From IMG/VR virus record IMGVR_UViG_3300046171_000120, positions 1 through 29,647 of that record: a DNA stretch of 29,647 bases. The stretch is one strand, 5' to 3'. The notes beneath the pieces were generated by a model, which saw nothing but the letters and a program-made list of their open reading frames with translations, made no database searches and was not told where the DNA came from. The stretch comes from a virus. Position numbers and translations under genes: made by a program. This document shows positions 2,381-27,050 of this stretch, in pieces (the stretch's first letter is position 1; each line of letters starts with the position of its first letter).

Positions 2381-2406
2381 ATTTTATTGTGATATAAAAT
2401 TTTTGT

Positions 2407-2421
2407 AAAAATACAAAATTT
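2407..2421 (-). promoter_or_regulatory. Late-type -7-like element upstream of portal
   Basis: On the minus strand this reads AAATTTTGTATTTTT. The next base on the minus strand is A, giving the box TATTTTTA about 25 bases before the portal ATG. The same 15-mer core is found in the repeats at 20140-20159 and 22901-22920. It resembles the Bacteroidota -7 box TAnnTTTG with the last G changed to A. No TTTG sits at the -33 distance, so this is a weak promoter call on its own; its recurrence in front of other genes is what supports it. Confidence 0.4.
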
Positions 2422-2460: not shown

Positions 2461-3613
2461 TTATATTTTGAATAAACCGCGTATCGCAAGCAGCGTCATT
2501 AAATGATTGTTAGCATCAATCGGTTTGTTGATGATTGTTTCGTCTTTTAATCGTTGCCAAAAATATGTGTGTTGTTCGTGTTTTAGGTTTGTCGATTGTT
2601 CCGAAACAAATATTTCGTGTTCCTTTAATAAACTGATTCCGGCGCTTATTGATCCGGCGCCCTTTGTCGCACCTTTTGCCAATACGCCCATTTGACGCAA
2701 TTCAACAATTGATTTTGGTTCCGCTGAATCGCAATAACTTAACACGTCCGCTTTGCCAATGTTTTTAAGGAAATTAGCAATGTCGCGGTTTGTCATTCCT
2801 TTTTTATACATTAATTCGTTGACATATAAACGATCTTTAATTTTGCCGACTTCCAAAATCGCTAATTCGTCATTTGTAAATCCAAAATCAATGCCAATGA
2901 CCGTTTCGTCAAACTCCGGAAATTCAGACAATGGAATATATTTCCAATTTGTAAAGATTTGACGGTCTGAAAAAACCGCGCGTTGTCCCTCTCCATAAAC
3001 GCGCCAATAATCGGGGTCACGCAATTTGATGCGTTCGATTTCCTGGACTAATTCCGACGGCAAAAATTGATTGTCTTTGTACGTTGTAATAAACAAATCC
3101 GAATCGTCGCGTTCAATCACTTCATTATAAAGCCAATGAACCGGGTCTGACGGGTTGAAGTCAATAATTAATTCGCCAACGGTTCGCATATTCAATTGAC
3201 GAAAAGATTCAAACGTCAATTCGTTGGCCTCGTTCAAAAAACAAATATCGTGTTTGGCGCCACGGATTTTTTGCGGGTCGTCGGTTGATAAGAACTGAAC
3301 AATCGAGCCATTGAATTTAAAGGTGTTTTCCGCCTTGTTGTGTTCGCCTTTATAGTAAACCCCTAATTTAGTGGCAATGCCGATAAAATCGCGTAATACC
3401 GACCTTTTAAGCGCCGGCAATGTTTTTCCGCACGATTGATATTGTGATCGGCTTTTTGGTTGTTGTTAGCTTATAAATTAAGAATTGGCAAATGGCATAC
3501 GTTTTCCCGGAACGCGTCCCGCCTTGATGTACTTTAATTCGAGCCTTTGAATTCAATGTTTGGTAAAATTGAACGTTGCAAAACTCTTTTATTTGTCCTT
3601 TGCCGGTGTCCAT
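2461..3613 (-). CDS. terL: Terminase large subunit (frame broken once)
   Basis: The packaging motor ATPase and nuclease. It starts at ATG 3613, overlapping terS by 25 nt. The Walker A motif GGTRSGKT (residues 31-38) is in the first frame, which stops at 3407 after IVRKNIAGA. The continuation, TLPALKRSV, is in the +1 frame. The two join at the A5 run at 3423-3427: four A residues would give RKTLPALKRS and one 383-residue protein. Beyond the join come FLNEANEL (Walker B-like with catalytic acid), IIDFNP (coupling motif) and GIDFGFTNDELA with CDSAEP (RNase H-like nuclease acids), as in PBSX/Terminase_3 type enzymes. The single extra A in a homopolymer looks like an indel error; a functional +1 shift is possible but less likely. 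Confidence 0.9.
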
Positions 3614-3973: not shown

Positions 3974-3999
3974 AAACCCCTACATTTCTGTAAGGGTTT
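3974..3999 (-). terminator. Rho-independent terminator after the 50-residue gene
   Basis: On the minus strand AAACCCTTAC, loop AGAAAT, GTAGGGGTTT, then a run of T. The stem has 10 positions with one mismatch. It lies 18 bases after the stop at 4018 and ends the small unit before terS. Confidence 0.85.
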
Positions 4000-4017: not shown

Positions 4018-4170
4018 TTATTCCTCGATTATTTCTTTTATGTTATCATATCCCCACCGATTTACAGCTATTTCTGTCGCCTCGTCCATATTTTCAGCGC
4101 GGACATAACCATAAAAATTTGTTTCAATTCCGTTTTTTTTCCAAGTTGTTGTTCTAATTACTTTGTACAT
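4018..4170 (-). CDS. Small protein of unknown function, 50 residues, own transcription unit
   Basis: Starts MYKVIRTTTWKKNGIE and ends NRWGYDNIKEIIEE. It looks like a small alpha/beta domain: a strand-rich front half (VIRTTTWKKNG...NFYGYV) followed by a helix, RAENMDEATEIAV, and the GYDNIKE strand. This is the pattern of short phage proteins sometimes annotated as DUF-type beta-beta-alpha domains, but I do not recognise the family. It has the best-formed promoter of the genome just upstream (4208-4238) and a terminator just after its stop. It is therefore made from a short monocistronic RNA, which suggests strong or separately timed expression. No membrane segment and no cysteines. Confidence 0.7.
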   Translation of the reverse strand: MYKVIRTTTWKKNGIETNFYGYVRAENMDEATEIAVNRWGYDNIKEIIEE

Positions 4171-4207: not shown

Positions 4208-4238
4208 CAAAAGTAAAAGAATTTTTTCAATTACCAAA
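4208..4238 (-). promoter_or_regulatory. Promoter, TTTG-N4-TTGAAA-N9-TACTTTTG
   Basis: On the minus strand, TTTG (4238-4235) and TACTTTTG (4215-4208) are exactly 19 bases apart, the spacing of the Bacteroidota housekeeping consensus TTTG-N19-TAnnTTTG. TTGAAA sits between them at 4230-4225. The same TTGAAA-N9-TAnTTT layout is found at 6992, 11304 and 26965. It faces the 50-residue gene, about 37 bases from its ATG. Confidence 0.75.
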
Positions 4239-5297: not shown

Positions 5298-6971
5298 TTA
5301 AAACGGAATATTATCTTTAATCACTTCAAATTTTTTTGTTTCCAAATCAATGTCTTTATAAATCCCGCCATTGTTGAAATCCGGTGCAATATCAAAATCG
5401 CCCAATTGTCCATTTTCTTTTCGTTTGACCTTTTCAATATATATTTTAACCACGTCGGATTTGAATTTAGTACGTTCACCAATGCAGCGGTAAACAATCA
5501 AACCGTTGTAGGCTTTATTGAAAAAATCGGCTGAACCGCTAATGTCATAAAGCGTTGGTTTTTTATATCGTCCATTTTCGGATTCTATTTTGCGGGGGTG
5601 CGCCACTAAAAACAAATGCGTGTTTGTTTGTTGACAAAATTGCGTTATTTCTGAAAGCGCCCGGCCAATATATGAATGGTCGCGTTGCGCTGAATGGTCC
5701 AACATATTCCAGGGGTCAATGACGCAAACGTTGATTCCCTTTTGGAATACTAATTCTTTAAAGGCGTTTAATATGCCTTTTAGTGTTAAATTTTCCAAAT
5801 CTATTTTGACCCAAAAAAAATGATCTTGAATAAAATCTTTTGTTTGGTTCAATTGGTCGTTGTTGCAATTGGTTTCGTTTAATTTATTCGCGATGCGTTT
5901 AATGTGGCCCTCGTATGGAAACGATTCCGGCGCAAACATAGCGCAACGCATATCGTATTTTAACGCCATATTACAACAGATTTGATCCATTACGTCCGAT
6001 TTTCCCGAATTCGGAATCCCGGTCACAACGGACCATTGTCCCAATTCCATTTTGAAATAATTATCGGCGTTTGGTAAACCAATAGAATAATTTTTGACGC
6101 CGTTTTCGTTATAATTTAAAACGGAATCCCAAATATTATCTAAATTCAATACGCCCTCTAATGGAAAGTTTTTTGCCGTTTTAATGACGTTTCGCAAAGT
6201 TTCGGCACCTTTTGTCGTCAATATCTCGTTGGCGTCCTTAAAAGCGCCAAAATCGACGTATTTGCAACGATATGCGCCGAAGCGTCGCGCCAATTCATTG
6301 CGTAATTCAATCCCGGGGTTGTCATTGTCGGTGCAAAGTATGATTTCTTTTTTGTCTTTAAAATACTGAAAACAGTTGTCTAAATATTCCAAACGTTGAT
6401 TTCCTTTTGATGCGCCGTTCGGAACGGAACAAACGGAATAAATCCCGGCCTCGTGCAATGACAATGCGTCAATTTCGCCCTCAACAATGAATATTTTTTC
6501 CATTGTTTTGATATTATCAAGGCCGTAGAATATCAATTCAGCACCGGAAACCATTTTAAAATTCTTTTGCCCGTCACGATATTTGACATTCACCAAATCA
6601 TTTTCGCGGTAATAATTGAAATTGATCGCGCGGCGTTTTTTACCTACTTGCGGAAAGTATTCCAATGATTCGCCAATTTTCCAATGTTGAAGCGTTGGTT
6701 CTGAAATGCCACGTTCACCGAACCATTTGACAACGCGTTCGGTCAAATTGACTTTTATTTTTTCAGGACGGACAAATTCTTTTTTCTTTTCAAATTTAGT
6801 GGTGCCGGAAAAACCGCAGTTGTGACAATTGAATAAACCTTTGTCAATATCAACGGACAAACATTTGTCGCGTTTGTTTTTTCGTGTGTGGCTGCATTGT
6901 GGACATTGGGTTTTTATTTTACCGGTCGATTTGTTGCCGATGTCAATGCCGAAATCGTTAAATGTTTTCAT
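5298..6971 (-). CDS. DNA primase-helicase, T7 gp4-like
   Basis: 557 residues, the central replication enzyme: it makes primers and unwinds the fork. Domains in order: zinc ribbon CPQC (23-26) ... CHNC (49-52); primase core; TOPRIM fold with VEGEIDAL (163-170) and TDNDNPG (214-220), which hold the metal-binding acids; RecA-like helicase with Walker A GIPNSGKS (318-325), Walker B VCVIDPWN and the later LFLVAHPRK motif; C-terminal SGSADFFNKAYNGLIVYR. Length and order match bifunctional gp4/Twinkle-type proteins. The ATG at 6971 follows an early-type promoter (6992-7022) by about 20 bases. The gene begins a run of four genes down to 4288 with almost no gaps. Confidence 0.93.
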   Translation of the reverse strand: MKTFNDFGIDIGNKSTGKIKTQCPQCSHTRKNKRDKCLSVDIDKGLFNCHNCGFSGTTKFEKKKEFVRPEKIKVNLTERVVKWFGERGISEPTLQHWKIGESLEYFPQVGKKRRAINFNYYRENDLVNVKYRDGQKNFKMVSGAELIFYGLDNIKTMEKIFIVEGEIDALSLHEAGIYSVCSVPNGASKGNQRLEYLDNCFQYFKDKKEIILCTDNDNPGIELRNELARRFGAYRCKYVDFGAFKDANEILTTKGAETLRNVIKTAKNFPLEGVLNLDNIWDSVLNYNENGVKNYSIGLPNADNYFKMELGQWSVVTGIPNSGKSDVMDQICCNMALKYDMRCAMFAPESFPYEGHIKRIANKLNETNCNNDQLNQTKDFIQDHFFWVKIDLENLTLKGILNAFKELVFQKGINVCVIDPWNMLDHSAQRDHSYIGRALSEITQFCQQTNTHLFLVAHPRKIESENGRYKKPTLYDISGSADFFNKAYNGLIVYRCIGERTKFKSDVVKIYIEKVKRKENGQLGDFDIAPDFNNGGIYKDIDLETKKFEVIKDNIPF

Positions 6972-6991: not shown

Positions 6992-7022
6992 CTAAACTAA
7001 AAAAATATTTTCAAATATTAAA
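6992..7022 (-). promoter_or_regulatory. Early-type promoter before primase-helicase
   Basis: Minus strand TTTA-N4-TTGAAA-N9-TAGTTTAG, the same spacing as at 4208, 11304 and 26965. The -33 box differs from TTTG in its last base. It overlaps the last codons of the methyltransferase gene at 7018 and faces the ATG at 6971. Confidence 0.6.
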
Positions 7023-10400: not shown

Positions 10401-11157
10401 TTATAATATTAAACTTCCGTCGTCGTGAAACTCATTCCAGGTGAAGCCGGAAACAATACCGGTGTCACAATATATTTTCCAATCGTCAAACGCGCGTTTC
10501 CACGCCTTGCGGCCTTGTTCAATCATTTCGTCGCTTAATGTGTAAACCTCAACCGTGAACGGGTAGTTTGTTTCAACCGCAATAAATTTAAAGTTGTCAA
10601 CGCCGCATTGGTCCATATAAAACGCCGCTTGTAAATGATAGGCGTATTTGTAAACGTCCCGGCGAAACGCAACGGGTGAATTGTCCTGACAAGTTTTGAC
10701 GTCCGATATAAACCCCGAAACGCGGTTCAAACAATCCGGACGGACGCGAACGTCCAAACCGTCGTGTTTGCCATAATGCGACAATTCAATTTCGCCTTGA
10801 CAATACTTTTGCGCCAAATCGTGATTGCGAAAGTTTTCCAAAATTTTGGTGATTTTTTCGTGATCATCAAATGAAACTAATTTTTTGCCGGCGGCCTTTT
10901 TTTGTTCCATTTCAAATTGTTCTTTTCCCGCTTTTGTCCGGCGGTCAATTTTCGGCATTACGTGAAAATCCTTATAATACATTTCCGGTTCTAAGCATTG
11001 CGCAATGAACCGCCGTTCCCAATGCCATTGCGGAACTCTCAAACGGTTTTTGGTTAATGAAATGATATACAGATTTTTTATAAATAGCTTTTAAACCCGA
11101 CGCGCTGATTCCCGGCGACGAATGATATTTTTCATTTGAATCAAATTGTGTTTTCAT
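10401..11157 (-). CDS. RecE/ExoVIII-like PD-(D/E)XK exonuclease (frame broken once)
   Basis: The start at 11157 gives YHSSPGISASGLKAIYKKS and AMALGTAVHCAML, the N-terminus of the RecE-type family (DUF3799-like), but this frame stops at 10972. The +1 frame continues LEPEMYYKDFHVMPKIDRRTKAGK, again family sequence. Joined at 10989-10996 (ATG CTT a GAA) the protein is 251 residues and reads GTAVHCAMLEPEMYY. Catalytic parts follow: RVRPDC, FISDVKTC (D-x-K) and YHLQAAFY (the Q-x-x-x-Y helix). It would resect double-strand ends 5' to 3' for the annealing protein encoded upstream. The break is probably an indel error; CTT AGA also resembles +1 slip sites, see findings. Its ATG overlaps the stop of the 43-residue gene by one base. 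Confidence 0.82.
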
Positions 11158-11288
11158 TATTCTATTATTTTATAGTTGTTAATTTCTTTAATGATTTTCT
11201 TTAAATTTTTATTTTCCTTTTGAAGCCTTGAAAGGTTGTTTTGTAACGCGTCAATTCGCCAATAAAGGAACTCTAATAAATTTTCCAT
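11157..11288 (-). CDS. Small coiled-coil protein, 43 residues
   Basis: MENLLEFLYWRIDALQNNLSRLQKENKNLKK... is one amphipathic helix with leucine or isoleucine about every seven residues (L5, I12, L19, L22, L29, I32), that is, a short leucine zipper. Its stop overlaps the start of the exonuclease gene (TAATG), so the two are coupled. An early-type promoter (11304-11334) lies directly before it and a terminator before that, so it heads a transcription unit that runs on through the exonuclease and the DnaA-like gene. Function unknown. Confidence 0.65.
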   Translation of the reverse strand: MENLLEFLYWRIDALQNNLSRLQKENKNLKKIIKEINNYKIIE

Positions 11289-11303
11289 TTTGTTAATTTT
11301 TTA

Positions 11304-11334
11304 TAAAACTAAAAATATATTTTCAATTTGCAAA
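11304..11334 (-). promoter_or_regulatory. Early-type promoter before the coiled-coil / exonuclease unit
   Basis: Minus strand TTTG-N4-TTGAAA-N9-TAGTTTTA. TTTG (11334-11331) and the TAGTTTTA box (11311-11304) are 19 bases apart. The ATG at 11288 is 15 bases downstream. The last base of the -7 box differs from the consensus. Confidence 0.68.
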
Positions 11335-12173: not shown

Positions 12174-12362
12174 TTAAATATCCAGGATTTCAGAAATTCC
12201 AAAACCGGCGTCGCTTAAAATAGTGACTTCGGCAATTGTGAATGAATCCGGATTTTGCAAACGTGATTTTAATGTTGGCATTGTGCAATTAAGCAATTCG
12301 CAAACATCGTAACGTTTTAAATTTAAGCGCTTTAATTCCGCTTTGAATTTATTTTCAAACAT
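12174..12362 (-). CDS. Small HTH regulator
   Basis: 62 residues from the ATG at 12362 (MFENKFKAELK); an upstream TTG in frame is less likely. KRYDVCELLNCTMPTLKSRLQNPDSFTIAEVTILSDAGF is a helix-turn-helix of the kind in small phage regulators, with TMPTLKSRL as recognition helix. It is the first gene after the terminator that ends the tail region, so it opens the early region and is a candidate control protein for it. It lacks the length and dimer domain of a CI-type repressor. Confidence 0.7.
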   Translation of the reverse strand: MFENKFKAELKRLNLKRYDVCELLNCTMPTLKSRLQNPDSFTIAEVTILSDAGFGISEILDI

Positions 12363-12384: not shown

Positions 12385-12392
12385 CAAAAGTA
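12385..12392 (-). promoter_or_regulatory. -7 box TACTTTTG before the HTH regulator
   Basis: Perfect TAnnTTTG match on the minus strand, 22 bases before the ATG at 12362. No TTTG at 19 bases upstream (the sequence there is TTTT), so this is only a half-supported promoter. A degenerate copy of the TTGAAA element is at 12421-12426. Confidence 0.45.
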
Positions 12393-12433
12393 AAAAATTT
12401 CTTTTAAATAAAAAAAATATTTTCAAAAAAAAA

Positions 12434-14726: not shown

Positions 14727-16909
14727 TTAATATATTCGTCCGGCCGTTTCATTGGCGCGTTCAATCGCAATCAATAAGTCTTGACCGTCAACCCTCACGT
14801 TTCCGGTGACGGTTAAATTTCCACCACCGGCGCCACCAATCATTGATTGCAGTTTGTTAAGCGGTGCAATGACTTCCGGATTTTGTCGCGCGCCTGGATA
14901 TTCACCAACCAATCCCATTGTGGGACCGCTAACAATACCACCGTTGGCGAATGCGGTTGCACCGCCACCTTTGGCAATTTTACTTGCTTGCGCCCTTGCA
15001 AACGAACCCAACGCAATCAAAGCGATACCGGCCGCAATTGCAGCCACCGGATTCAATGATTTTAGCGCTTTTTTTATACCCTCAACGGCCAAACCAATAC
15101 TTATTGCAAGTTTACCTAATTGAATCGCCATTCCGCCAATAGTTGTCAAAACAACTTGTGAAAGTTTTTGCGCTAAATTTCCGCCACCGCTTATTGCTTG
15201 TCCTAATGCCGAACCAATTCCGGTTGCTAATTGATTCAAACCGCCCGTGATAATGTTTCCAATTTCTGAATTAAAAGCCATTGCGTTTGCGATTGCAATT
15301 TGTTGTTGTTCGGACAAAACCGATTGTTGTTCGGCAATTGCCGCCGGGATTCCCGCCGTGTCGGCTTTTATTGCGTTTGTGACCGGTGTCATAATACCGC
15401 CGGATTCAAGCGCCGAAACACTTGAAACGGCACCACGCCCACCACCACCGCCACCGCCGCCGGACGTTGTTGTTGTTCCGTCACCGCCGCAGCTTGACCG
15501 CCGTCACCGGCTGAAACAACCGCCACCGGAACGACAATTGGCGAAATTTGTTTTTGTTCTAATGCCTCGTTGAAATTATCAACAACACTTGAACCCAATG
15601 TTTTGGCGTCGGTTTTTATATCATTGAACGCGCTAATCATATTGTCTTTAATACCTTTTGACGCCTTAACAAAACCGGCTTTTATTTGTTCCGGATCAAA
15701 CGTGAAAATCCCCATTATAATGTCACCAACGCCACCCAATATTGAAACAATATTTTTTCCGGCCGTTTTTAAAATTGTGACCAATGTTGAAAAAACAAAT
15801 TTTCCAACCGCAACCAAATTTTTGAATTGCATAATTATTGCGTCCACGGCCAATTGTATCGGCAACGAATTGTTGTATAATTCAATAAAATAATTGCCGA
15901 CTTTAATCAATGCGGCTTTTATACCCGCCCAATTTTTATAAATAACAACGCCAACCGCCGTCAATGCAGCAACGACCAAACCAATAGGCCCGGTCATCAA
16001 AGTTAATGCGGCACCGATTGCCGGCGCCATTGTTAAAAGTGTTCCAATTATTGCAATCACCGGTCCCAATGCAGCGACAACGCCGCCAAATATTAAAATA
16101 ATTTTTTTAACCGTTGGCGACAAATCGCCGAATCGTTGAATTAAACCATTCAAAAAAGTCACTAATTTTGTAAATACCGGCAAAATAATTTCACCAAATC
16201 GCGCCGCTAATTCTTTTAATGACTCTTGAAAAATACGCATTTGATTTGCAGCGCCACCGCTTGTTCGTGAAAAATCACCTTGGGCGTTCGCCGTTTTTGC
16301 CATAATAAATTCATATCTCAACGCGACCTTTTCCGCTTGCGACATTGTTTTAATATTGGCGTTCATTCCTTGTTCCATTGCGAAGTTTTTCAAATTGACT
16401 TCGGTCATAACAACGCCCAATCTTTTCAATGATTCCGTTTCGCCCGTGAAAACGCCGGCCAATGCCGTTTGCGCTTGTTCAATATCAATGTTTTTAAAAG
16501 ACGCCAAATCGCCGGCCAAACCAACTAATTGGGTTGACATTCCCGCCGCGGCGTTTGTTGACAATCCCATTGATGTCGCCATATCACCAAACAATGCAGC
16601 CATATCAAGCGCGGAACCCTCGGCGATTCCGAATTCTTTTAATGTTGTTTTTGCGAATTCTTTGACTTCTTTTCGTGAGTTTCCAAACGCAACATCAACC
16701 TTGTTCATTGATTCCTGGAAATCACTTGCAAATTTTATCGCAGCGCCCCCGGCGGCAACCAACGGCAACGTCAAACGTGTGGACATTTGTTTTCCAACGT
16801 TTTGCATTTTGGAACCAAAAGATTGCATTTTTGCCGAAGCGCTTGACAATGCGCTTTTAAGTTTCGACGAATCGCCGGTGATGTTTAATTTTAAATTTGA
16901 TTCGGCCAT
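14727..16909 (-). CDS. Tape measure protein (frame broken once)
   Basis: About 727 residues, which sets tail length and forms the inside of the tail tube. The main piece (16909 to 15389) has the family start KLNITGDSSKLKSALSSASAKM, the core FASDFQESMNKVDVAFGNS and GDMATSMGLSTNAAAGMSTQL (PhageMin_Tail-like), then hydrophobic segments (IILIFGGVVAALGPVIAIIGTLL). The second piece (down to 14727) continues a Gly-rich hinge, SGGGGGGGGRGAV, IMTPVTNAIKAD and ends with GGLNQLATGIG and GNVRVDGQDLLIAIERAN. The -1 break lies at about 15479-15494. By the usual 0.15 nm per residue this predicts a tail near 110 nm. The gene is preceded by the palindromes at 17021-17053. Confidence 0.87.
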
Positions 16910-16926: not shown

Positions 16927-16934
16927 CAAAAATA
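16927..16934 (-). promoter_or_regulatory. Late-type -7-like box TATTTTTG before the tape measure gene
   Basis: Minus strand TATTTTTG, a full TAnnTTTG match, 17 bases before the ATG at 16909. It shares a 14-mer with the repeats at 20140 and 22901. No clear -33 box. Confidence 0.42.
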
Positions 16935-17020
16935 CAAAAAAAAAGACGCATTAAAATTTAAAAAATTTTTTCAATTTTATACGAAGGTAAATTTTGATTG
17001 TTGAATGTTCTCGAATTTTT

Positions 17021-18846: not shown

Positions 18847-20127
18847 CTACACTTGTGTCAATGTTGTTAATTCGCTTGTTGTCAATGTTTCGTCAAATAT
18901 AGCGTGCGCAAACAATTTTCGCGTTGAATTGCCCGTCGTTGCTTTTGCAAAATCCGAAACAATCGCTTCGCCATTTAAAACGTCAAAATCACCCGTGACC
19001 GTTCCGGTTTTTACTTGCGAACCATTTACAAAAATAATAAAAGAATTCCCAAACAATCGAATCGCCAATTTATTGCGTTGAAAAAATGGTACTAAATTTT
19101 CACTTGTTGAAATTAAAGTATTTGACGAACCATTGTTTGACGATGCGCTTATATATGAAAAATAATTAATGCCACTTTTATAAGTTTGCAATCTTAAAAA
19201 TTTAGTTGTTCCGGCGTTAACCGCGGAAAATAAACGTTCGCCGTTTGTGGTATATGTATCAATTTCAAAATCAAAATAAAACGTTGCATCGGCGCCCAAT
19301 GTGAATGTGGACGTATTCACGCAATCGTCAAAATCTCTTGTGATTGCGGTCGATTCGGTTTTTATATATGTACTTGCGCCGACTGATTGTTCAACCTGGC
19401 AACCCCATAAATAAACAAATGACGTTGATGTTGAATTTGTTGCGTCAATAACGCCGTCCGATGATCGCGGCGAAAAGGTGGCGCTAATTGTTGTAGCGGT
19501 GTCCGTTGTGTATTCAAATTGCAAACGAAACCACCCGTTTCCGTATTCCTCAACTTTTGTTTTTCCGGCGGTAAATGTTCCGACGGCATTATATGAATAA
19601 ATTGTTTTTGTGCTGAATTGAAATTTTGCGTCAACGCGGTTTGGATACGTTCCCGTTGACCTTAAAGCAAAGTAATCGCCCTCACCTTGTTTAACAAAAA
19701 CCGACGTTGTCATTTGCAAAGCCGTCGCCGATTTTGTTGAAGTGTCTTGCATATACGACGATGACGTTGACGTTCTTAAAATTTTGTCGGCGTTTGTTGT
19801 GTTGTCCGGTGATGTGATTTGATTCGCCGTTGCGGTTATGTTTATTTTATTCCACGCTGCATTGTCAAATTCCTCTGATCGGACTTGAATATTTGACGCG
19901 GAACCCTCAACGAGTAAAGACGGGCAACCGCCATTGTAATGATTCAAACGCGGTATATTGGCGCTTTTTGTTTCGATTAAACCGCTAACATTTTGACGCG
20001 TTGCGTCGTCACCGGTGCGCGCAAACGTGAAGTCAAATGCGCCGGAACTTGGAAAAATTGAATAAACTTTTGCGGACTTGTAACCGGACGGAATTAATAA
20101 AAATTTTGCTTTGTCTAAAATTGCCAT
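18847..20127 (-). CDS. Tail fibre / receptor-binding-like protein A
   Basis: 426 residues, strand-rich and Ser/Thr-rich. Recognisable parts are FARTGDDATRQNVSGLIE, IPRLNHYNGGCPSLLVEGSASNIQVRSEEFDNAAWNK (a signature of phage fibre and adhesin proteins with a carbohydrate-binding jelly-roll domain), then GNGWFRLQFEYT and YLWGCQVEQSVGASTYIKTESTAITR, and a C-terminal LamG/concanavalin-like stretch, TFYFDFEIDTY...NKLAIRLFGNSFIIFVNGSQV...AHAIFDETLTTSELTTL. These domains bind sugars on the host surface. It shares this layout with fibre B (20170-22443), which lies directly upstream, so the two are likely paralogues. Its DNA composition matches the rest of the genome. Confidence 0.78.
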   Translation of the reverse strand: MAILDKAKFLLIPSGYKSAKVYSIFPSSGAFDFTFARTGDDATRQNVSGLIETKSANIPRLNHYNGGCPSLLVEGSASNIQVRSEEFDNAAWNKINITATANQITSPDNTTNADKILRTSTSSSYMQDTSTKSATALQMTTSVFVKQGEGDYFALRSTGTYPNRVDAKFQFSTKTIYSYNAVGTFTAGKTKVEEYGNGWFRLQFEYTTDTATTISATFSPRSSDGVIDATNSTSTSFVYLWGCQVEQSVGASTYIKTESTAITRDFDDCVNTSTFTLGADATFYFDFEIDTYTTNGERLFSAVNAGTTKFLRLQTYKSGINYFSYISASSNNGSSNTLISTSENLVPFFQRNKLAIRLFGNSFIIFVNGSQVKTGTVTGDFDVLNGEAIVSDFAKATTGNSTRKLFAHAIFDETLTTSELTTLTQV

Positions 20128-20139
20128 TTTTGTAGTTTG

Positions 20140-20159
20140 TACAAAAATACAAAATTTTA
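20140..20159 (-). promoter_or_regulatory. Late-type repeat element, 20 bp
   Basis: Minus strand TAAAATTTTGTATTTTTGTA, identical over 20 bases to 22901-22920. Contains TATTTTTG (TAnnTTTG) 14 bases before the ATG of fibre A. Confidence 0.5.
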
Positions 20160-20169
20160 CAATGTTATT

Positions 20170-22443
20170 TTATGAAGTCAAACATTGAAGTTCCGCATCT
20201 GTTAATGCTTCTTTAAATACTGCAACACATTTAGCGTTTCCGTAAAAGTTTAAAGCTCCATTACCAGTATCGAAAGTAATTCTATCTAATCCTATTGGAG
20301 TAGCTCCAGTTGTATCTGTTGCAACTTCTACACCATTAATCCATAAAGCAAAATCATTTTCTTTGTATTTAACACAGATTTTGTGATAATCTAAAGTAGA
20401 TGCGACAATTTTTTGTTCATCAAATGAAGTAGAGCCATTACTTTTAACTATTGTCCTTATAGAATTAGAATTAGTACCTAAAACAAGCGTTAATCTATTA
20501 TTAATAGAGCCATCATACAAAGATATACATCTATTAGTTCCATCATTAGCCAAAGCAGAAATCTCCGCATATAAAACCCCCTCTGTTGAGTTTATTAAAT
20601 CGCTACTACCAGCATTGTTGCAAACGTCTGCTAAACGTGTTACTGTGCTTCCGCTTGTTGGTATGTAGGAAGTTGCGTATGATTGTTCTTCTAATTGTGC
20701 TCCCCAAACATTATAAGAGGTTGCGGTTGAAGAACTGGAATCATCTATATTGCAATGAAATTGAGTTCCTGAACTTGTTGAATTAAAAGTTCTCGAAAAT
20801 TTATGTCTTTTCCAATTGTTTGTTAAAGTAACAATTTTATCTCCAGCATCGTCTACTCCATTAGACATCTGTAGTCTTAATGTTCCACTTCCTTTTAAAT
20901 AAACTGAAAAAGATAAAGTTTTATTTGCTGAATCAAAACTTGATGGATAAAATCTTAAATCATTACTACCAGTACCATCTAAACCAGTTATGTTTGTAGC
21001 ATTATTTTGACCACTTGGACTTAATATATTTGTTGCACTTATAGTAGTATTACCTGTTTTAGTCCAACCATTAAAATTTTCTGAATACGTTACGAGATTA
21101 GTACTCTGTGGTTCTAACAACAAACTCCCAGTTCCATCTGTATAATCTATTCTTGGTAAGTCTGTGTCGTCTGTTATTTCTATTACTGATATGTTGTCTA
21201 TTGTGACATTTGATGAATTAGACCTTATAGCTAATGCATTTGAACTATCTTTTGTAATGTAAACAGATTTTAAACCTATTGTAGTAAATGAAGCGTATGT
21301 AGTTGCAGAACCTGTATCGTATATATTACAAACACCGTCTGCAATTGATACTATTTCAAATTGTACTTTATATAATTTGTTAATTGTTAAAGATGCGTTT
21401 GTAATTAAATTTCCTGTTGAACCTGTGTGTAAAGCTACACCATCTCCAATAGACCACCCTGTACCAAACGTCCAATTCTGTCCGACCTCTTTGACTGATA
21501 CGTTGTCTATTGTTCCTACAAAAGAATTATTTCCGCCTACATAAAAAACTTTATCTGTATTTGTTCTTTCTACTATAAAAGAATGAACTCCTACCGTAGA
21601 ATCCCTATCGGTAACAGTTCCTCCTAAACCAATTCTAACATTTCCTGAACTTATACTTACTACTTCATATGAAATTTTATACTTTTTATTTAGTAAAGTA
21701 TCAACTACCCTATAAGTGTAAATATTTCCACCTGAACCTGTTCCATTAAAAACAATTTCATTATTAATTATATCTACAGCGTTATTACTCGTATTCCACC
21801 CTGTACTTCCATCACTAAAATCTCCATTAACAACCAACTCCGAGCCTTCTTCAGAGAAATCTCCGTTTTGTACTAAATTCCCACTTAATATCTGTACATC
21901 TTCTATAAGTCCTTTTTCGTTTACTCGTGTGGCACTTGAGCCTCTTGTAAAGTCAAAGTCTGCGTCTATTACTTCTTTTACGCTTACGTTGTCTATTGAG
22001 CCTACAGTATTAAAACTTGGATTTTCTCTCCAAAACTCTATGGTTTTTATACCATCGCTAATATGAAAAGTAAATTTCTCCGAATAACTTTCATTAGCAG
22101 TATGAGTTCTTGTTAATTCTCTATATGAATTATCAAAAGTTCTTGCTACAACTATAAATCCACCACTTCCTGATTCTTCTGAAATATCCACATTAACAAC
22201 TAAATTTCCATTTAAAGAAACGTCTTGCTTTAAAATAGTAAATGCATTAGAATCTATACTTGCTTTACCATCAGCTATAACCCATTCTCCTGCCGTTATT
22301 GTCCAATCACTATCAGTTGCAAAATCTCCATTAGTAACCAATTCACTACCAAAAGTTTTAACTGGCTTAACACTATGTAAAGACCCATTATCGTAAGCAG
22401 TAGGTGTTGTAATTATCGACGCTTTTTGTAATAAATTCGGCAT
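20170..22443 (-). CDS. Tail fibre / receptor-binding-like protein B, foreign composition
   Basis: 757 residues. The front has repeated NGDF modules: ELVTNGDFATDSDWTI ... IDNVSVKEV, then ELVVNGDFSDGSTGWNTS ... IDNVSVKEV, and a shorter GLKSVYITKDSS ... IDNISVIEI, the carbohydrate-binding-module-like repeat common in marine phage fibres. FTRGSSATRVNEKGLIED and PRIDYTDGTGSLLLEPQSTNLVTYSENFNGW correspond to the same motifs of fibre A but are split apart here by the NGDF modules. The C-terminus (ISALANDGTNRCISLYD...HKICVKYKENDFALWINGVEV...AVFKEALTDAELQCL) is LamG-like. Codon use is clearly unlike the neighbours (few CG-containing codons, many AGA, TCT, CCT), which suggests recent transfer. It probably sets the host range. 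Confidence 0.8.
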   Translation of the reverse strand: MPNLLQKASIITTPTAYDNGSLHSVKPVKTFGSELVTNGDFATDSDWTITAGEWVIADGKASIDSNAFTILKQDVSLNGNLVVNVDISEESGSGGFIVVARTFDNSYRELTRTHTANESYSEKFTFHISDGIKTIEFWRENPSFNTVGSIDNVSVKEVIDADFDFTRGSSATRVNEKGLIEDVQILSGNLVQNGDFSEEGSELVVNGDFSDGSTGWNTSNNAVDIINNEIVFNGTGSGGNIYTYRVVDTLLNKKYKISYEVVSISSGNVRIGLGGTVTDRDSTVGVHSFIVERTNTDKVFYVGGNNSFVGTIDNVSVKEVGQNWTFGTGWSIGDGVALHTGSTGNLITNASLTINKLYKVQFEIVSIADGVCNIYDTGSATTYASFTTIGLKSVYITKDSSNALAIRSNSSNVTIDNISVIEITDDTDLPRIDYTDGTGSLLLEPQSTNLVTYSENFNGWTKTGNTTISATNILSPSGQNNATNITGLDGTGSNDLRFYPSSFDSANKTLSFSVYLKGSGTLRLQMSNGVDDAGDKIVTLTNNWKRHKFSRTFNSTSSGTQFHCNIDDSSSSTATSYNVWGAQLEEQSYATSYIPTSGSTVTRLADVCNNAGSSDLINSTEGVLYAEISALANDGTNRCISLYDGSINNRLTLVLGTNSNSIRTIVKSNGSTSFDEQKIVASTLDYHKICVKYKENDFALWINGVEVATDTTGATPIGLDRITFDTGNGALNFYGNAKCVAVFKEALTDAELQCLTS

Positions 22444-22604: not shown

Positions 22605-22877
22605 TTATCTTAAATAACAAATAACTTTGCCCGATGCACAATCAACGTCGTCAAAATTTCCGTAAATGATTGATCCGGCACCCAATGCCAAAGACGTGAT
22701 TGAAGCATCACCGGCCGCGGCGTCAATGTCACACGAAATTGTTGACGCTTCGATTGCTTGAATTGCGCAAAAACTTTCGCCGGCAATTGATGTTCCGGAC
22801 GCCGGAATGATACGCAAACCATTGTCGCCAAATGATAATTTTTGAAAATCGCTTGAATAATATAAATTTGAAGCCAT
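22605..22877 (-). CDS. Small structural-like protein, 90 residues
   Basis: MASNLYYSSDFQKLSFGDNGLRIIPASGTSIAGESFCAIQAIEASTISCDIDAAAGDASITSLALGAGSIIYGNFDDVDCASGKVICYLR by parts: small residues (Ala, Ser, Gly), alternating strands and three cysteines in the second half. This is typical of small beta-structured virion proteins (cement, fibre tip or tail accessory) in Bacteroidota and marine phages, and proteins with the phrase SGSIIYGNF-like near the end are common there. Position just before the fibre genes supports a virion role. It has a late-type 20-bp element in front (22901-22920). No enzyme motif. Confidence 0.65.
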   Translation of the reverse strand: MASNLYYSSDFQKLSFGDNGLRIIPASGTSIAGESFCAIQAIEASTISCDIDAAAGDASITSLALGAGSIIYGNFDDVDCASGKVICYLR

Positions 22878-22900: not shown

Positions 22901-22920
22901 TACAAAAATACAAAATTTTA
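22901..22920 (-). promoter_or_regulatory. Late-type repeat element, 20 bp, second copy
   Basis: Identical over 20 bases to 20140-20159. TATTTTTG (22910-22903) lies 25 bases before the ATG at 22877. Confidence 0.5.
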
Positions 22921-26788: not shown

Positions 26789-26931
26789 AGCTTAATATTT
26801 AAAAGGTTCAACATTCTGTTTAAAAATTTATCAAATTTGCTTTGAGATTCCAAATTTTCAATTTCTTTTTTGGTGTAAACATTTACGCGTTTTCCGTCGT
26901 GAATGATTGTTAATCCGGTTGTTGTTTTCAT
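26773..26931 (-). CDS. Small hypothetical protein, 52 residues
   Basis: MKTTTGLTIIHDGKRVNVYTKKEIENLESQSKFDKFLNRMLNLLNIKLWRGV. The ATG at 26931 is used because the frame above it crosses the capsid terminator and promoter. Front: a two-strand hairpin (GLTIIHDGKRVNVYTKKEIENL); back: an amphipathic helix (KFDKFLNRMLNLLNIKLW). It is the first gene after the promoter at 26965-26995. No family recognised. Confidence 0.65.
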   Translation of the reverse strand: MKTTTGLTIIHDGKRVNVYTKKEIENLESQSKFDKFLNRMLNLLNIKLWRGV

Positions 26932-26964: not shown

Positions 26965-26995
26965 CAAAACTAAAAAAAAATTTTCAATTAAAAAA
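26965..26995 (-). promoter_or_regulatory. Early-type promoter of the accessory island
   Basis: Minus strand TTTT-N4-TTGAAA-N9-TAGTTTTG; the -7 box is a full TAnnTTTG match and the spacing is that of the three other copies. It lies just after the capsid terminator and 33 bases before the ATG at 26931. Confidence 0.68.
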
Positions 26996-27023: not shown

Positions 27024-27050
27024 AAAGGCCCGGAATAAATCCAGGCCTTT
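27024..27050 (-). terminator. Terminator after the major capsid gene
   Basis: Minus strand AAAGGCCTGG, loop ATTTATT, CCGGGCCTTT then TTTT: a 10-bp GC-rich stem with one G-U pair, 23 bases after the capsid stop at 27074. Confidence 0.92.

Follow-up and report, generated by a model that had tools for sequence, protein, structure and literature searches.

The main finding of this investigation is that the candidate promoters of a phage genome fall into two classes, E and L, that differ in both sequence and gene context; the mechanism by which they would be read is putative. Class E sites combine a −33 TTTG or T-run, a spacer element TT-N2-AAAA (frequently TTGAAA in this case, at approximately −27 to −21 from the predicted start) and a −7 box TAnnTTTG, and the phage would place this full form before an HTH regulator, replication/recombination genes and small accessory genes. 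Class L sites, which several virion genes would use, have the same −7 box directly abutted by TTTTG and are devoid of the −33 box. We consider it probable that class E sites are promoters read by the host RNA polymerase with the primary Bacteroidota sigma factor, with the inner box serving as an optimised spacer element; both the activity and the effect on strength are deduced from sequence. From their gene content, class E would be early and class L late.

The window, i.e., the whole stretch of DNA analysed, is the complete IMG/VR record IMGVR_UViG_3300046171_000120 (29,647 bases), a siphophage-type genome in which all annotated genes lie on the minus strand, hereafter the coding strand. Portal, terminase, primase/helicase, methylase, exonuclease VIII, SSB, tape measure, tail, capsid and protease genes are annotated therein, with the closest annotated relatives of the primase/helicase coming mostly from Flavobacteriia phages (Tenacibaculum phage JQ, Cellulophaga phage phi10:1 and Flavobacterium phages). 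Related loci, hereafter the relatives, were retrieved via the capsid, primase, exonuclease and terminase proteins, giving a redundant set of 303 loci (3.45 Mb). The portal (145-2380), terminase large subunit (2461-3613) and exonuclease VIII (10401-11157) genes of the window each occupy two overlapping frames; since the exonuclease (251 aa) and portal are single frames in relatives, a frameshift or sequencing indel is likely in the split genes.

Class E sites in the window and in related phages

The original prediction had described four copies of a motif with TTGAAA exactly 9 bases before a TAnTTTnn box. All four were found at the coordinates given (4208-4238, 6992-7022, 11304-11334 and 26965-26995), on the minus (coding) strand and reading toward genes, with the 9-base spacing exact before TACTTTTG, TAGTTTAG, TAGTTTTA and TAGTTTTG. 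The proposed fit to host-type −33/−7 boxes stood in part: the sites are promoter-like with host-type boxes, and the TTTG-like outer box is an exact TTTG in two of the four, being TTTA or TTTT in the others. A fifth site had been overlooked at 12385-12415 (a TTTAAAA variant), upstream of the gene for a 62-aa HTH protein. The −7 box TAnnTTTG is exact at 4208, 12385 and 26965, and one base off at 6992 (TAGTTTAG) and 11304 (TAGTTTTA). The candidate promoters and adjacent features are as follows.

26965..26995, minus strand: candidate class E promoter 1 (T-run; TTGAAA at 26982-26987; −7 box TAGTTTTG at 26965-26972)
27024..27050, minus strand: terminator-like hairpin that follows the major capsid gene and immediately precedes candidate promoter 1
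12385..12415, minus strand: candidate class E promoter 2 (TTTAAAAGAAATTTTTTACTTTTG; −7 box at 12385-12392; third best score in the window)
12174..12362, minus strand: 62-aa HTH protein with a lambda-repressor-like fold, preceded by a class E site in 35 of 42 distinct relatives
11304..11334, minus strand: candidate class E promoter 3 (TTGAAA at 11321-11326; −7 box TAGTTTTA at 11304-11311)
11159..11290, minus strand: 43-aa gene after candidate promoter 3, followed by exonuclease VIII (10401-11157, two frames)
6992..7022, minus strand: candidate class E promoter 4 (TTGAAA at 7009-7014; −7 box TAGTTTAG at 6992-6999)
5298..6971, minus strand: DNA primase/helicase, after candidate promoter 4
4208..4238, minus strand: candidate class E promoter 5, the site under study (TTTGGTAATTGAAAAAATTCTTTTACTTTTG; −7 box TACTTTTG at 4208-4215; best score in the window)
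4018..4170, minus strand: 50-aa gene with no assigned function, after candidate promoter 5
3974..3999, minus strand: terminator-like hairpin between the 50-aa gene and the terminase small subunit gene

With up to three mismatches allowed, the full pattern was matched six times in the window versus 0.38 expected, a count reached in none of 100 shuffles, and all four occurrences of TTGAAA-N9-TAnTTT lie on the minus strand (Markov mean 0.17; maximum 2 in 300), with none on the plus strand. When a weight matrix was built exclusively from relatives' sites distinct from those of the window (7 sites, near-window ones having been removed), its top window scores went to five minus-strand sites, i.e., the four known ones and 12385-12407; none in the shuffles scored at least 18 bits. 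The original prediction had named many copies inside genes as evidence against itself; none of these five sites falls within an annotated gene. The E. coli sigma-70 pattern TTGACA/TATAAT was not above chance (43 versus 48.5 and 38 versus 44.2 expected from shuffles).

Candidate promoter 1 lies upstream of a 52-aa gene (ATG at 26931), and its layout recurs downstream of the capsid gene in relatives (L014-L016); being inside the virion module past a terminator-like hairpin, it could also feed genes further down. Relatives retain candidate promoter 3 ahead of their exonuclease VIII gene, and candidate promoter 4 in the form TTTAAA/TTGAAA-N9-TAnTTTAGC.

The motif search in related phages that had been proposed as a check bore out the spacing, with 55 distinct sense contexts for TTGAAA-N9-TAnnTTTG versus 0-11 for other spacings and 0 in antisense; at a threshold of at least 24 bits, 332 sense sites and no antisense site were likewise scored in the relatives. 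Among the genes downstream of these sites, those that could be assigned comprise the HTH gene, primase/helicase, exonuclease and two small genes; many others are small and have no counterpart in the window. Position and spacing of the inner element were thus upheld, and the word itself was not: the same position also holds TTAAAA, TTTAAA or TTCTAAAA, with TTTAAA predominating at the primase site. Among 49 clustered class E sites, numbered from the T of the −7 box, the near-fixed positions are the T pair (−15/−14), the AAAA block (−12 to −9) and a TTT (−3 to −1); the base between the T pair and AAAA is free and the G of TTGAAA is optional, so that the conserved element is TT-N2-AAAA followed by T-rich DNA. 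Across relatives, the core comprises a T-run, TAaTT-N2-AAAA, TTT and TAnnTTTG. Near the −33 position, 51% of the class E clusters have TTG at −24 to −21, as against 4.5% for class L. A search for AATTGAAA-N9 across viral contigs yielded, among the matches listed, mostly chance-like ones.

Class L and the partition of genes

Overlooked by the original prediction, class L consists of TTTTG abutting TATTTTTG or TATTTTTA, without the −33 box, and precedes virion genes. On the coding strand of the window, TTTTGTAnnTTTR occurs four times, before the portal and tape measure genes, a tail gene and gene 22605-22877.

22903..22915, minus strand: TTTTGTATTTTTG, candidate class L promoter before virion-module gene 22605-22877; in 8 of 10 distinct relatives
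20142..20154, minus strand: TTTTGTATTTTTG, candidate class L promoter before tail protein gene 18847-20127; in 14 of 19 distinct relatives
16927..16939, minus strand: TTTTGTATTTTTG, candidate class L promoter before tape measure gene 15389-16909; in 14 of 14 distinct relatives
2406..2418, minus strand: TTTTGTATTTTTA, candidate class L promoter before the portal gene (2021-2380 + 145-2139, split)

In the relatives, 207 class L matches (115 distinct) lie upstream of ORFs, 187 of the matches being before virion-module genes. The spacers of clustered sites are opposite by class, with an A-tract in E and a T-tract in L. When distinct upstream regions of assigned genes were tallied, virion genes had 0 E and 45 L sites and non-virion genes 59 E and 6 L, a partition with a Fisher p of ~1e-24, which overstates the evidence since the sequences are related and non-independent. 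The earlier statement that no site precedes a virion gene holds for the window and extends to the relatives, in which no class E site of at least 24 bits was found before an assigned virion gene. Many virion and non-virion genes are preceded by neither class, as is expected from operons.

Neither Flavobacterium phage hattifnatt nor Tenacibaculum phage JQ showed this partition: in both, an E-like site precedes the portal gene, and the partition is thus confined to the studied clade; in Cellulophaga phage phi10:1, no sense-strand site of at least 15 bits was found. In JQ (L572 12603-12640), a promoter-like site is followed by AAGTGTAAA, matching the sequence downstream of many relatives' class E sites.

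Host promoters and the role of the inner element

Comparisons with presumptive hosts drew on Flavobacteriales genomes. A TerL search for hosts turned up a single Flavobacteriaceae genome (Winogradskyella, 46% identity), along with a phage contig that had been binned into a Rhodobiaceae genome. The presence of the latter contig (L308; NYTN01000018.1), which carries a 97% identical terminase, in the Rhodobiaceae MAG probably reflects misbinning and not an association with a host.

In host genomes, TTTG-N19-TAnnTTTGCA was matched 281 times (forward plus reverse-strand), far above the reversed-pattern control; in these promoters, the stretch 11-8 bases ahead of the −7 box is an A-tract (z 4.1 to 5.5), and T is favoured at −6, −3 and −2. 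The fuller layout TTTG-N4-TTGNAA-N9-TAnnTTTG gave ~60 matches versus 24 for the reversed pattern in 395 Flavobacteriales genomes. Among 20 host loci chosen by eye out of these ~60, several sites lie at most 100 bases from ribosomal-protein genes and two lead into tRNAs; the neighbouring genes include those we take to be S21, S12, L11, L31 and the YceD-L32 pair, with S21 confirmed by PF01165 downstream of the full layout in two genomes (G071 and G113). The inner TTG is absent from most host S21 promoters. One host genome (G024; 2,612,925 bases), picked because of its excess, displays a clear three-box profile TTTG-N4-TTG-N12-TACCTTTGC: of 112 promoters, 24 carry TTG at −15, and TTTG stands at −24/−23. 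Such a TTG at −15 is not general, occurring in 6/131 promoters of nine other Flavobacteriaceae and in 2/143 of the N19 set; the extended motif had a single match in the 395 Flavobacteriales genomes. As a general host promoter word, TTGAAA-N9-TAnnTTTG was not supported, the 9-base spacing being no commoner than others (228 versus 268 per spacing in 60 Flavobacteriaceae genomes).

Class E is akin to the Bacteroidota primary-sigma (sigma-ABfr) promoter, −33 TTTG/−7 TAnnTTTG, in its −7 box, 18-19 base spacing and AT-rich spacer and, at some of the sites, in an exact −33 TTTG, and differs by the fixed inner TT-N2-AAAA, often TTGAAA, at a single spacing; class L differs from that promoter in having no −33 box. 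Promoter maps of F. psychrophilum and B. thetaiotaomicron both support TAnnTTTG. In F. johnsoniae promoters, AT-rich motifs centred at −18 and −28 are more evident than the −33 motif (PMC6847099). Class E shares with these a helical-turn-spaced AT-rich signal between the boxes that is clearer than the −33 motif; however, the F. johnsoniae signal is a statistical preference, whereas that of class E is near-fixed and limited to non-virion genes in one phage clade. The A-tract shared with hosts, the occurrence of the full layout ahead of some ribosomal-protein and tRNA genes, and the published AT-rich motifs lead us to regard the inner box as belonging to a strong promoter of host type rather than as a proven activator site. 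It would represent an optimised form of the AT-rich spacer preference of host promoters, and probably boosts promoter strength through DNA shape or polymerase contact.

The main rival to this reading is that the inner element is an operator of the phage's 62-aa HTH protein, which, bound between the −33 and −7 boxes, would shut off class E promoters including its own in the style of Cro or C proteins; we deem this unlikely. In the relatives, the HTH gene carries the most frequent assigned class E site, and a site of at least 30 bits is present in 85 of 89 loci of at least 10 kb that hold the gene. The putative recognition helix CTMPTLKSRL is nearly invariant, and the predicted model resembles lambda-repressor-like regulators, C proteins, SinR and P22 c2, with weak Foldseek E-values (none <0.001). 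The site at 4208 even contains a spaced dyad, GTAA-N2-GAA-N4-TTC-N2-TTAC, yet its right half varies in relatives (TTC, AAC, TTG or TTT) and most class E sites are without a dyad, such that conserved dyad symmetry was found neither between 4208 and its relatives nor at the other class E sites. Moreover, JQ has E-like sites with no detectable HTH homologue, and the A-tract spacer is also found in host promoters.

Binding of a phage-encoded activator that recruits polymerase, the first of two ideas originally offered for the inner element, appears improbable: it gained no positive evidence, and the second idea, a strength element, fits better. TTGAAA at exactly 9 bases is specific to the promoters of this clade and rare in most hosts, as an activator site might be; class E, however, is already equipped with a −33/T-run as well as a consensus −7 box, its inner word is variable, the G of TTGAAA not being conserved, and the half-palindrome at 4208 is lost in relatives, with JQ again having E-like sites and lacking the HTH gene. 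Furthermore, the genes needed first in infection cannot await a phage activator unless it is carried in. Chance similarity among ordinary AT-rich intergenic stretches merits next to no credence; intergenic DNA here is indeed very AT-rich, but the strand asymmetry, the peak at a single spacing and the conservation before the same genes all speak against it, and the spacing and strand controls refute it.

Gene timing

The promoter logic of Bacteroidota phages is little studied, and no description of promoter classes in flavophages was found in the open-access literature. Since non-virion genes and several virion genes carry different versions of the signal, the gene timing of this marine flavophage may be encoded in its promoter sequences. 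Lytic phages such as T4 possess early, middle and late promoter classes. The classes described here are alike in that promoter sequence varies with gene class and in that the class without an upstream box has an extended proximal box; they differ in that neither a phage sigma factor nor a MotA/AsiA-like or other known switch protein was identified, and the classes are defined by sequence. A tentative extension, which we hold to be possible if somewhat doubtful, is a two-class code built on one −7 box, in which class E (−33 plus spacer element) would serve early genes and class L (TTTTG abutting, no −33) virion genes; a phage factor, or one that the phage modifies, would redirect host polymerase from E to L in the course of infection.

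The partition affords a testable, sequence-level prediction of early versus late genes in an uncultured marine phage group, and class E suggests a strong promoter design for flavobacterial genetics. A published, unexplained AT-rich spacer signal is also now linked to promoters of ribosomal-protein and tRNA genes.

In some relatives, class L sites, for example those before the tape measure gene and before homologues of the gene at 14727, overlap the T-run of a GACGC..GCGTC hairpin; at these sites, a terminator and the next promoter appear to be fused. Within the tail region of the window, the large ORF 20170-22443 has a GC content below that of its neighbours and codon use visibly unlike theirs, and is possibly a recently acquired tail-fibre-type gene.
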